Of a stretch of DNA of 64,000 nucleotides, positions 51,917 to 56,708 are shown one piece after another; the first letter of the stretch is position 1, and the number at the start of each line of letters is the position of its first letter. A program made the position numbers and the translations under genes. The notes under the pieces were generated by a model. The model was not told the DNA's origin. It was given only the letters and a program-made list of their open reading frames with translations, and searched no databases. The stretch is from NCBI RefSeq assembly GCF_003258365.1, contig NZ_QHKM01000005.1:248001-312000 (forward strand). Direction: 5' to 3'. Source of the stretch: Hymenobacter edaphi. Its GTDB lineage: Bacteria; Bacteroidota; Bacteroidia; Cytophagales; Hymenobacteraceae.

Positions 51917-53203
<1,287 letters not shown>

Positions 53204-53304
53204 GGTACTTGGAGTTTTGGGTTGTGGAAAAGGGGACTGAAAGGGCAAAGGCGTAGCGGCCGAGGCTTTTTTGGAGCATCGGAGCAGGGAGCCGGCAAGG
53301 AGTA

Positions 53305-53402
53305 GTAGCGCGAACTTTCAGTTCGCGTAGCTCAGAACAACGGCTGTTCGAGCAGGGCAACGATTGATGTTCGGGGATACGCGAACTAAAAGTTCGCGCT
53401 AC
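53305..53402. repeat. Inverted-repeat pair, GTAGCGCG family, copy 2
   Basis: Arms of 25 bases at 53305-53329 and 53378-53402 are reverse complements at 24 of 25 positions. Each arm is also a palindrome (CGCGAACT / AGTTCGCG around three bases). The right arm overlaps the aceB stop codon (53399-53401). Matches the arms at 1520-1680. Confidence 0.85.
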
Positions 53403-55024
53403 AGCCGCTCGTAGGCGGGCAGCGTGAGGAAATCGGCGCAGTCATCGGCCAAGACCAGTTGGTCGAGCAGGTGCAGGGCCGGGCGGTACAGCGCGGCGTA
53501 GGGCTCCTCCCCTACCTCGCGGCGCAGCTTGGCTACCACCTCTTCCAGCAGCGCGCGGTAGAGTTCTGGCGTGACGGGGCGGCCGTCGGCCAAGGCCGTT
53601 TCGGGCGTGTGCAGCCACTGCCAGAGCTGCACCCGGGATATTTCGGCGGTGGCGGCGTCCTCCATCAGGTGGTAAAGCGGCACGCAGCCGTTGCCGCCCA
53701 GCCAGGCGCCGAGGTAGCGCAGGGCCACGTCGAGGTTCTGGCGCAGGCCGACTTCGGTAATCGTGCCCTCGGGCGCCCGCAGCAGCTCGGCGGCGGTGGG
53801 CAGCGGCTCGGAGCTGCGCGGCTTGCCGATCTGGTTCGGGCCGGGCATCAGCTCATCGAAGACCGCCCGGGCAATGGGCACCAGCGCCGGGTGGGCCACC
53901 CAGGTACCGTCGTGGCCGAGGCGGGCTTCGCGCAGCTTGTCCAGGTGCACCTTGTCGAGGGCAATGGCGTTTTCGGCGGGGTTGTCCTTGATGGGAATCT
54001 GCGCGGCCATGCCGCCCAGAGCGTGCACGCCGCGCCGGTGGCAGGTGTCGATGACCAGACGCACGTAGGCGGCCATGTTGGGCACGGTCATGGTCACCTG
54101 GGCGCGGTCGGGCAGCCGGAATTCGGGGCGGGCGCCGAGGGTCTTGATGTAGGAGAAAATGTAGTCCCAGCGGCCGCAGTTCAGCCCGGCCGAGTGCTGC
54201 CGCAGCTCCCAGAGGATTTCGTGGGTTTCAAACACGGCCGGCAGCGTCTCGATGAGCACGGTAGCCTTGATAGTGCCCTTGGGAATCTTCAGCGCCCACT
54301 GCGCCAGCTCGAACACCTCGTTCCACAGCCGGGCTTCGAGGTGACTTTCCAGCTTGGGCAAATAGAAATACGGCCCGGTGCCCCGCGCCAGCAGCTCGTG
54401 GGCGTTGTGGAAGAAGTACAGCCCGAAGTCGAACAAGGCGCCGCTGATTTCCTCGCCGTCGATGAGCAGGTGCTTTTCATTCAGGTGCCAGCCGCGGGGG
54501 CGCACCAGCAGCACCGCGGGCCGTTCGGTAAGCCGGTACGTGCGCTGCGGTGTTTCAAGCGTGATGCTGCGGCGCACGGCGTCACGCAGATTCAGCTGGC
54601 CCTGCACCACGTTCGGCCAGGTCGGGGCGAGGGAATCCTCGCAGTCGGCCATGAAGGTGCGGGCGCCGGAGTTCAGGGCGTTGATAACCATTTTCCGCTC
54701 CGTCGGGCCGGTTATTTCCACGCGGCGGTCCTGCAGATCGGCCGGCAGCGGCGCCACCTGCCAGTCCGACTCGCGCAGCTGGGCCGTTTCGGGCAGAAAA
54801 TCGGGCAGGCGGCCGGTGGCAAACTCGGCCCGGCGCTGCTGCCGGCGCCGCATCAGCTCCTGCCGCCGCGGTTCAAAATGGCGGTGCAGCTCGGCCAGAA
54901 AGGCCAGCGCGGAAGGCGTCAGGATTTCGGCAAACGTGTGGGTATACGGCCCGAGCACTTTCACGCGCTCGGGGCAACGGTACTCGGCACTTACTGCAAC
55001 GAGCGGCTGGTCAATGGTTTCCAT
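53399..55024 (-). CDS. aceB: Malate synthase A
   Basis: A 541-residue protein from ATG 55024 (METIDQPLVA). An ATG at 55072 is rejected because it overlaps the promoter -7 box. Blocks seen: MADCEDSLAPTW (metal and substrate region), LLVRPRGWHLNEKH, ATVLIETLPAVFE, GRWDYIFSYIK, and the C-terminal LTLPAYERL. It condenses glyoxylate with acetyl-CoA to malate. The stop codon lies inside a repeat arm. It is divergent from a RamB-like regulator and upstream of aceA. Confidence 0.95.
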   Translation of the reverse strand: METIDQPLVAVSAEYRCPERVKVLGPYTHTFAEILTPSALAFLAELHRHFEPRRQELMRRRQQRRAEFATGRLPDFLPETAQLRESDWQVAPLPADLQDRRVEITGPTERKMVINALNSGARTFMADCEDSLAPTWPNVVQGQLNLRDAVRRSITLETPQRTYRLTERPAVLLVRPRGWHLNEKHLLIDGEEISGALFDFGLYFFHNAHELLARGTGPYFYLPKLESHLEARLWNEVFELAQWALKIPKGTIKATVLIETLPAVFETHEILWELRQHSAGLNCGRWDYIFSYIKTLGARPEFRLPDRAQVTMTVPNMAAYVRLVIDTCHRRGVHALGGMAAQIPIKDNPAENAIALDKVHLDKLREARLGHDGTWVAHPALVPIARAVFDELMPGPNQIGKPRSSEPLPTAAELLRAPEGTITEVGLRQNLDVALRYLGAWLGGNGCVPLYHLMEDAATAEISRVQLWQWLHTPETALADGRPVTPELYRALLEEVVAKLRREVGEEPYAALYRPALHLLDQLVLADDCADFLTLPAYERL

Positions 55025-55065
55025 CGGGTTCAGGGTTGTGGTTGTGGATTGGGAAAGCAGTGGAT

Positions 55066-55109
55066 CAAACATACATCAGCGAATAATATTAATCAAGCGA
55101 ATTTTCGCT
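55066..55109 (-). promoter_or_regulatory. aceB promoter with candidate operator repeats
   Basis: On the minus strand TTG (55096-55094) and TATGTTTG (55073-55066) are 20 bases apart, close to the consensus. AGCGAA occurs at 55078-55083 and 55096-55101, 18 bases apart, and TTCGCT at 55104-55109 forms a palindrome with the second copy. The repeats cover the spacer and the -33 box, a position suited to repression by the divergent regulator. The operator role is inference. Confidence 0.6.
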
Positions 55110-55232
55110 AAAAGATAAAAATTAGCAGAAAGCAGGTTTTTCACTTAGCTCGTTGGATAATGCTTTTCTTTGCTGACAGCGCGCCAGCGGCCTTTTTGCC
55201 AAGCAGTCCGCAACGCGAAAAATTTTCCCGCT

Positions 55233-56708
55233 ATGCTTACCCACACCCAGGTTGTCCGTCTGATTTTTGGCTTGAAGCTGCGGCAGCTGCGGCAGGAGCA
55301 GGGCCTCACCCCGGCGGCGCTGGCCCAGGCCGTCGACGTGTCGGTGTCGTACCTGAATGAGATTGAGAAGGGCAAGAAGTACCCCAAGGCCGACAAGGTT
55401 CTGGCCTTTGCGCGGGTGCTGGGCGTGAGCTACGACGAGCTGATTTCCCTCAGCCTGGGCAAGAAGCTGGCCCCAGTGTCGGAGCTGCTGCAGTCGGAGG
55501 TGCTGCGGGAGTTTCCGCTGGACATGTTCGGCCTCGACCCCAGCCGGCTGATCGAGCTGATTTCGGACGCCCCGACGCGGGTTATGGCCTTCATCAGCAC
55601 GCTCTGGGAGCTGGCCCGCAACTACGAGGTGCGGCAGGAACACTTTTACCTGGCCGCGCTGCGCTCCTACCAGGAGATGCACGACAACTACTTCGACGAC
55701 CTGGAAGACGCCGTGCGCAGCTGCGTGGCCCGCTTCCGCCTGCGCACCGACGCGCCCTTCGACCTGCACCAGCTCGAAGACCTGCTCGGCCAGGAGTACC
55801 ACTACCTCATCGACCGGCACGAGCTGGGCGCGCACCCGGAGCTGGCCCGGCTGCGCTCGGTGCTGCAGCCCGCGGCCCGGCGCCTGCTGCTGCGGCCGGG
55901 CCTCACGCGGGCGCAGGAGGCGTTTATCCTGGGCCGGGAAGTAGCCTTCAACTACCTCGGGCTGAAAGACCGGCCCTACACCAACGTGCCGGCCGTAACG
56001 CCCGGCTCCTTCGAGCAGGTCCTGAATCATTTCCGGGCCTCCTACTTCGCGGTGGCCCTGCTGATGGAGGAAAGCCAGCTGGTGGCCGATCTGCAGGCGT
56101 TTTTCTCCTACCCGCGCTGGAATGCGGCCCTGCTGCTGGGCCTGCTCACCCGCTACGAGGTGACGCCCGAAATGCTGCTGCAGCGCGTGACCAACCTGCT
56201 GGCCCGGCACTTCGGCATCGGCAGCCTGTTTTTCCTGCGCTTCGATCAAGACACGGCCGGCGGCTTTCAGCTGACCAAGGAGCTGCACCTCTCGCGCCTG
56301 CACAACCCGCACGCCAACGAGCTGCAGGAGCACTACTGCCGCCGCTGGGTGAGCTTGTGGCTGATGGAACAGTCGCGGCAGTCGGGCAGCCCGGGCCTGC
56401 GCGTGGCCGCCCAGCGCAGCCGCTACTGGCAGACCACCGACGAATACCTCTGCCTCACCGTGGCCCGCTTCGACGCCTCGGGCCACGCCAGCAGCGTAAC
56501 GGTGGGCTTGCCCGTCGACGACAACCTGCGGCAGAAAGTGAAGTTCCTCGACGACGACAGCATTCCGGTGCGCTGGGTGAATGAAACCTGCGAGCGGTGC
56601 TCCATCCTCGACTGCGAGGTGCGCGCCGCCCCGCCGGTCGTCATCGAGCGACGGCAGCAGCAGCAGCAGCTGGCCGAAGCCGTGCAGCGGCTGATTCAGG
56701 GGCAGTAA
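55233..56708 (+). CDS. RamB-like XRE-family regulator, probable regulator of the glyoxylate bypass
   Basis: A 491-residue protein from ATG 55233 (MLTHTQVVRL). N-terminal helix-turn-helix at about 8-62 (LRQEQGLTPAALAQAVDVSVSYLNEIEKG). A central region corresponds to the IrrE-like domain, but the usual HExxH is replaced (ILGREVAFNYL). The C-terminal part has a Cys pair region, NETCERCSILDCEV. This is the architecture of RamB/short-chain fatty-acyl regulators, and Corynebacterium RamB controls aceA and aceB. Divergence from aceB-aceA and repeated sites in the shared region support the same role here. The effector and sign are not shown by sequence. Confidence 0.85.
   Translation: MLTHTQVVRLIFGLKLRQLRQEQGLTPAALAQAVDVSVSYLNEIEKGKKYPKADKVLAFARVLGVSYDELISLSLGKKLAPVSELLQSEVLREFPLDMFGLDPSRLIELISDAPTRVMAFISTLWELARNYEVRQEHFYLAALRSYQEMHDNYFDDLEDAVRSCVARFRLRTDAPFDLHQLEDLLGQEYHYLIDRHELGAHPELARLRSVLQPAARRLLLRPGLTRAQEAFILGREVAFNYLGLKDRPYTNVPAVTPGSFEQVLNHFRASYFAVALLMEESQLVADLQAFFSYPRWNAALLLGLLTRYEVTPEMLLQRVTNLLARHFGIGSLFFLRFDQDTAGGFQLTKELHLSRLHNPHANELQEHYCRRWVSLWLMEQSRQSGSPGLRVAAQRSRYWQTTDEYLCLTVARFDASGHASSVTVGLPVDDNLRQKVKFLDDDSIPVRWVNETCERCSILDCEVRAAPPVVIERRQQQQQLAEAVQRLIQGQ

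Follow-up and report, generated by a model that had tools for sequence, protein, structure and literature searches.

A predicted AGCGAA palindromic operator at aceBA, a deep Bacteroidota branch of ScfR-type regulators, and candidate gluconeogenic targets in relatives

In the window, the whole stretch of 64,000 nucleotides of Hymenobacter edaphi DNA that was analysed (G000:C39:248001-312000), the glyoxylate-bypass genes aceB and aceA lie on the minus strand and the gene of a regulator, P0001, is divergent from them (Table 1); the earlier note had described the regulator as divergent from aceB. The aceB promoter carries an AGCGAA palindrome with a further half-site outside it. Sequence comparison gives good support to this operator and to P0001 being a deep variant of the ScfR kind, and the regulator very probably reads the palindrome; the set of sites found in relatives makes up a candidate gluconeogenesis regulon. 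Taken as a whole, the best explanation, and in our judgement a probable one, is a ligand-switched regulator of aceBA that serves as a gluconeogenesis regulator across the group.

Table 1. Genes, predicted regulatory elements and regulator domains. Positions are those of the window, except for domains, where residues of P0001 are given.
Feature	Position	Strand	Basis or remark
Regulator gene (P0001, 491 aa)	55233..56708	+	Family searches, fold, profile match
aceB, malate synthase A	53399..55024	-	TIGR01344, 776 bits (cut-off 594.5)
aceA, isocitrate lyase, downstream of aceB	51917..53248 (start codon provisional)	-	NF011645, 754 bits (cut-off 562)
Core operator (predicted), palindrome AGCGAATTTTCGCT	55096..55109	.	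Centre 55102/55103, about -41.5 from the expected aceB transcription start
Outer half-site AGCGAA	55078..55083	+	18 bp from the inner copy, inside the aceB -33/-7 spacer
Right-hand outer half-site, degenerate (TTAGCA for TTCGCT)	55122..55127	-	Possible, weak
aceB -7 box TATGTTTG (TAnnTTTG)	55066..55073	-	Resembles the Bacteroidota -7 box
aceB -33 TTG, probable	55094..55096	-	One base common to the inner half-site
XRE helix-turn-helix, N-terminal	residues 12-73
Degenerate IrrE-like domain			Without HExxH
GAF-like/C-terminal region			C369 and C453-x2-C456-x4-C461

Direct copies of AGCGAA begin at 55078 and again 18 bases on at 55096; an inverted TTCGCT begins at 55104 and forms AGCGAATTTTCGCT together with the inner direct copy. 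This agrees with the layout over the aceB spacer and -33 region given in the earlier note. The arrangement is beyond chance: among 20,000 dinucleotide shuffles of 55026-55232, 1 contained a hexamer of whatever sequence that formed a 6-2-6 inverted repeat and recurred exactly 18 bp outside it. The hexamer AGCGAA was not enriched in the window as a whole (31 found, 33.8 expected), and this count carried no weight in the argument. On the aceB strand, TATGTTTG (55073-55066) and the TTG (55096-55094) are 20 nt apart; the 55078 copy sits in this spacer and the 55096 copy overlaps the TTG by one base. The available part of PMC6847099 gives the Bacteroidota promoter consensus as TTTG/TANNTTTG; in Flavobacterium johnsoniae its T falls at -12 and its G at -5, and G at -9 is almost never found. 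The aceB box has G at -9, which speaks against a perfect box. If numbered by that consensus, the palindrome would be centred near -41.5 at aceB, with the outer half-site in the spacer. Translation of aceB probably starts at ATG 55024, with which the left edge of the region in the earlier note is consistent; an ORF start at 55072 is unlikely because that ATG falls within the -7 box. In the aceB-aceA interval (53300-53410), two inverted repeats with the pattern GCGAAC...GTTCGC were seen by eye, possibly a repeated mobile or REP-like element.

Elsewhere in the window's own genome, no place was found within one mismatch of the 16-mer palindrome, and above pckA the best match still had 3 mismatches of 12 fixed bases. 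A site with two mismatches (C28:183952), just before a 275-aa ORF in what looks by eye like a ribosomal-protein cluster, was judged to be chance. The aceB site alone is therefore evident in this genome, and the wider regulon is a claim about relatives.

The operator is conserved at aceB. The palindrome AGCGAAWWTTCGCT occurs once per genome in 8/8 genomes of the genus, always at the aceB site (reversed-pattern control, 0). Among 58 relatives, 23 orthologs of the regulator were found; aceB adjoins 17 of them, and all 17 have the palindrome, so that the motif check upstream of aceB and the regulator suggested in the earlier note came out in favour of conservation. Without adjoining aceB, one of six orthologs (L015) has the palindrome, and the other five show no AGCGAA within 320 bp upstream. 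In a second set of 80 named loci, aceB adjoins 42, and the core GCGAANNTTCGC was found in 39 of these; it was also found, at most 270 bp above the regulator, in 21 of the 38 loci without adjoining aceB, four of which contain less than 600 bp of upstream sequence. The 59 aceB-adjacent loci (17/23 and 42/80) thus include 56 with the core, L072, L107 and L112 being without it.

After two repeats were dropped (L039 of L002, L042 of L011), the remaining 54 aceB operators were reduced to 50 at below 85% identity. This non-redundant set was picked by GCGAANNTTCGC, so its core letters are conserved by construction, while the outer half-site and the -7 box are independent of the picking. Of the 50 operators, 35 have the outer half-site GCGAA at -18 and 6 have it at -17; an exact right-hand TTCGC stands at +17 in 9 operators and at +18 in another 2. 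In the -33 TTG region, C, A and A occupy offsets -9 to -7 in 66, 60 and 90% of operators. Flavobacteriales-like orthologs (19 loci) mostly have AGCGAACGTTCGCT, and some have AGCGAACGTACGCT or one end altered. Those loci of Saprospiraceae and their kin that are without aceB retain the core 26-61 bp upstream of the regulator gene, frequently in the form TGCGAA..TTCGCT and beside unlike neighbours.

Across genomes, the palindrome follows the regulator. In a survey of 292 genomes of the order, the regulator and the exact palindrome were each found in 133 genomes and both in 121; the palindrome was present in 121/133 genomes with the regulator versus 12/159 without it (Fisher's test, p = 1e-52). 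Stratified over the eight families having both states, the odds ratio was 90 (p = 1.6e-25), kinship among loci being allowed for by family only in these tests. A reversed-pattern control matched in 14/292 genomes. In a phylum survey of 395 genomes, the looser pattern AGCGAANNTTCGCT was found in 58/70 genomes with the regulator and, as a high background, in 68/325 without it. In seven genomes (L236, L239, L243, L244, L253-L255) the regulator lies elsewhere, yet the palindrome is at aceBA. Site positions were listed in part, and the sites fetched for inspection comprised 64 non-regulator sites from regulator-bearing genomes and 8 of 13 sites from regulator-less ones; 7/8 of the latter lay inside ORFs, and 3/64 of the former overlapped an ORF of at least 120 aa. 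None of the eight sites from regulator-less genomes was near aceBA, pckA, fbp or pyc. Some genomes have two or three regulator copies (G158, G239, G256). In Hymenobacter sp. BRD67 (L062), the length of the regulator match is not divisible by three, its frame looks broken and it reads without the cysteine motif; neither the exact palindrome nor an aceA match was found in that genome.

Of the 64 sites, 39 fell beside recurrent targets (39/53 when a Neolewinella genome with its 11 sites is left out): 18 at pckA, in 18 genomes, 7 at fbp, 6 at pyc, and 8, from 7 genomes, at an aceBA pair that does not adjoin the regulator. This looks like a candidate gluconeogenesis regulon across the relatives. 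At four loci with the palindrome, pckA is itself divergent from the regulator (L053, by Pfam; L054, L056 and L064, by likeness to L053), and at L105 a pckA-like gene is divergent from the regulator without the palindrome. In all eight Hymenobacter genomes that have the regulator and no adjoining aceBA, L062 with its broken-looking frame among them, no aceA was found at E 1e-60; therefore the regulator is not bound to the bypass in that group. Control of the glyoxylate bypass, as the earlier note framed it, fits the sites on the aceB promoter but is too narrow for the relatives, whose sites extend to pckA, fbp and pyc.

Other neighbours are no more than possible targets: ilvD (3 genomes with 4 sites in all, of which two are 484 and 570 bp away), and, with one site each, gap, a glutamate synthase gene, glutamate dehydrogenase, citrate synthase, a TonB receptor and a cation efflux gene. 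Further single sites are at L257 and at L238, where the gene has no family match. Two fba sites (L193, L200) are stem-loop-like, could be terminators and were not counted. In the Neolewinella genome (L218-L227 region), a few of the 11 palindromes adjoin fatty-acid oxidation genes: acyl-CoA dehydrogenase (L218; weak likeness at L226) and 3-hydroxyacyl-CoA dehydrogenase/enoyl-CoA hydratase. Its other neighbours include an E1 dehydrogenase component, a 4Fe-4S protein and a lysine-decarboxylase-like gene.

The promoter geometry differed between targets. TAnnTTTG was found within 62 bp of the palindrome in 39/50 aceB operators (shuffles: mean 1.8, maximum 7), and in 36 of these 39 its TA was 27-29 bp from the palindrome centre. 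The distance was likewise 27-29 bp in 7/7 fbp sites, and 29-30 bp in 7/8 unlinked aceB sites. The pckA sites formed three groups, at 24-29 (4 sites), 45-48 (8) and 56-57 bp (6). None of the six pyc sites has TAnnTTTG; four (L205, L209, L247, L249) have TAGCTTG at 28 bp, where a -7 box would be expected, which may point to another sigma factor. Three of these boxes fit the TAnnTTGY class in the accessible portion of PMC9723704. A promoter-side outer half-site was present at 48/58 aceB sites, 7/8 of the unlinked ones included, versus 1/31 other sites. Many activators bind with their centre near -41.5 or near -58 to -69, and the predicted centre near -41.5 at aceB and fbp would be such a position.

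We infer that the ligand-bound regulator would activate aceBA from the palindrome, and that the ligand-free or tetrameric regulator would also hold the outer half-site in the spacer and keep aceBA off. By analogy with Paracoccus RamB and Mycobacterium tuberculosis PrpR (MtPrpR), the activating form on the palindrome may be a dimer, to which a tetramer would add the spacer half-site and so shut aceBA. In many relatives, the same palindrome would put pckA, fbp and pyc under the regulator and thereby bring gluconeogenesis under its control. A more specific proposal, which may equally well hold or fail, is that of a widespread Bacteroidota acyl-CoA-sensing gluconeogenesis regulator, untied from the bypass in the Hymenobacter lineages that keep it without aceA. 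Its operator code would read the palindrome alone, near -41.5 or at about -58 to -60 and -69, as activation (fbp, pckA), and the added spacer half-site as an extra off-state at aceBA.

The spacer position of the outer half-site, kept in 41/50 aceB operators, is as compatible with a plain repressor as with a switch. A purely local repressor would, on sugar, sit over the aceB spacer and -33 region and come off on acetate, the pckA, fbp and pyc sites being incidental; the single site in the window's own genome agrees with this, as does the repression of icl1 on glucose by M. tuberculosis RamB (PMC3420887, in excerpt). We nevertheless consider it unlikely, since it leaves aside 18 pckA, 7 fbp and 6 pyc sites in other genomes. 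Moreover, in 14/18 cases the pckA site is 45-57 bp upstream of the -7 box, too distant to act by simple occlusion, and the eight Hymenobacter genomes without adjoining aceBA keep the regulator without aceA.

The protein has features of an ScfR-type regulator. In P0001, REVAF stands where HExxH would be expected in the IrrE-like domain (by eye), and no HExxH was found anywhere in the protein. The loss remarked on in the earlier note is thus real, but it is not special to P0001: the motif was absent from all 121 ortholog rows (P0001 included, some genomes entered twice) and from the seven out-of-phylum proteins examined, and MtPrpR is described without it in the part of PMC6765138 available. P0001 and its orthologs consequently lack the zinc motif of IrrE/ImmA metallopeptidases, and the Pfam M78 match (PF06114) of P0001 reached 21.9 bits against a cut-off of 22. 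C369, C453, C456 and C461 are invariant across 23 aligned rows; CxxCx4C was found in 120/121 ortholog rows and C[RK]xW in 119/121. These four cysteines are putative 4Fe-4S ligands of the ScfR type.

The AlphaFold model of P0001 (mean pLDDT 78, pTM 0.65; weak at 98-133, 356-368 and 463-471) had MtPrpR as its best whole-domain fold match (Foldseek, 6cz6, E 5.2e-9). In structural alignment MtPrpR was again the top match (Z 22.4, 293 residues aligned, rmsd 5.4), and the match to 6cyy/6cz6 spans model residues 137-487. A sequence search of solved structures with P0001 returned nearly all helix-turn-helix matches and no PrpR.

The conserved cysteines also bear on iron or Fe-S cluster state as the main signal, with carbon control secondary; the authors of the MtPrpR structure suggest that its cluster may sense iron (PMC6765138, in excerpt). 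This is quite improbable, given that the recurrent targets aceBA, pckA, fbp and pyc are carbon-metabolism genes and that the MtPrpR cluster resisted oxidants, reductants and a chelator and supports CoA binding (same excerpt). A further reading, in which the palindrome is bound by some other protein and the divergent ScfR-like gene plays no part, is hardly credible: the exact palindrome is missing from 12/133 regulator-bearing genomes of the order, but its presence follows the regulator within families, Saprospiraceae-type loci keep the core 26-61 bp above the regulator whatever the neighbours, and the half-site TTAGCGAA differs in a single letter from the PrpR box TTTGCgAA (PMC3420887, in excerpt).

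Sequence and model together place the preferred ligand-switched regulator as a deep Bacteroidota branch of the ScfR (PrpR/RamB/MccR/PccR) family. P0001 has the helix-turn-helix, the IrrE-like domain and the GAF-like/C-terminal fold of MtPrpR, as well as C-x2-C-x4-C and the GAF-like cysteine. A profile comparison with five canonical ScfRs aligned 416 columns (hhalign, probability 99.9, E 1.5e-31), the three C-terminal cysteines being in register. The Pfam ScfRs family PF09856 has no match in P0001 or in the window's genome. In 16/395 phylum genomes a protein narrowly passes it; 19/20 loci fetched from these genomes are 36-43% identical to P0001, and two such loci, scanned over shortened ranges, scored 21.1 and 19.5 bits (cut-off 24). 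Against the NCBI RamB model NF038139, P0001 scored 44.8 bits over residues 13-283, with a cut-off of 700 and 856.1 bits for the Nocardia yardstick (L284). Of the RamB-like control proposed in the earlier note, a RamB-type regulator divergent from aceBA and conserved AGCGAA sites on the promoter are supported; P0001 falls outside the NCBI RamB model.

In a tree of 32 proteins, the 25 from Bacteroidota lie on one side of a long-stemmed branch (support 98/98); with only seven out-of-phylum proteins, all from plasmid-collection records, any placement of root and sister group would be provisional. The earlier note had offered parallel origin or transfer. This clade and the presence of the regulator in 70/395 sampled phylum genomes do not support recent transfer from Actinobacteria, as far as seven outside proteins can tell. 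L281 (Arthrobacter) and L283 (Nonomuraea) are XRE/IrrE-like regulators adjoining aceA (L281 also aceB); they form a third clade, without a Pfam ScfRs match and without CxxCx4C. On the Persicobacter plasmid pPP3 (L287, NZ_AP025295.1), aceA, aceB and the regulator occur together, and a hypothetical gene separates aceB from the regulator.

Little seems to have been mapped of the way Bacteroidota change over between sugars and acetate or fat, and a search of titles and abstracts of the open-access literature found no paper on this regulator in the phylum. The usual profiles, Pfam ScfRs and NCBI RamB, both miss P0001. The analysis provides a motif searchable in any Bacteroidota genome, a short list of candidate targets and a testable mechanism. 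It also ties one regulator family to the same bypass in Actinobacteria, Proteobacteria and Bacteroidota through deep, separate branches, and in different relatives either aceBA or pckA adjoins the regulator gene.

Among the closest parallels is RamB of Paracoccus denitrificans, a class 2 ScfR divergent from malate synthase and isocitrate lyase (PMC10370305, in excerpt); RamB, which the earlier note gave as known from Actinobacteria, is thus not only actinobacterial. It has two near-identical boxes with an 18-bp spacer, passes from tetramer to dimer with CoA esters, appears to be an activator on acetate and a repressor on succinate, and is predicted to have a CoA pocket and a 4Fe-4S cluster (same excerpt). 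P0001 shares its gene order and family. Unlike the Paracoccus system, the Bacteroidota operator is built on a 6-2-6 palindrome to which an outer half-site is added, relatives have further sites at pckA, fbp and pyc, and the Bacteroidota proteins branch apart from those ScfRs of Proteobacteria and Actinobacteria that were sampled, in a tree that is without Paracoccus RamB itself.

With MtPrpR, P0001 shares the fold, CxxCx4C plus a GAF-like cysteine and the lack of HExxH; in MtPrpR, CoA is bound next to the 4Fe-4S cluster, under a lid stiffened by it (PMC6765138, in excerpt). PrpR differs in controlling the methylcitrate cycle and icl1, and identity in the structural alignment is 17%. Its two 8-bp boxes, TTTGCAAA and TTTGCgAA, are adjacent in the part of PMC3420887 available, whereas the Bacteroidota boxes TTAGCGAA and TTCGCTAA are two bases apart. 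The RamB model NF038139 is matched in the XRE helix-turn-helix and the middle domain, and the bypass link is common to both, although the score is far below that of Nocardia and the cut-off. Cra/FruR, CcpN and CggR are carbon-flux regulators of other phyla, from unrelated protein families and with other ligands; like them, the Bacteroidota regulator would tie gluconeogenic genes together.
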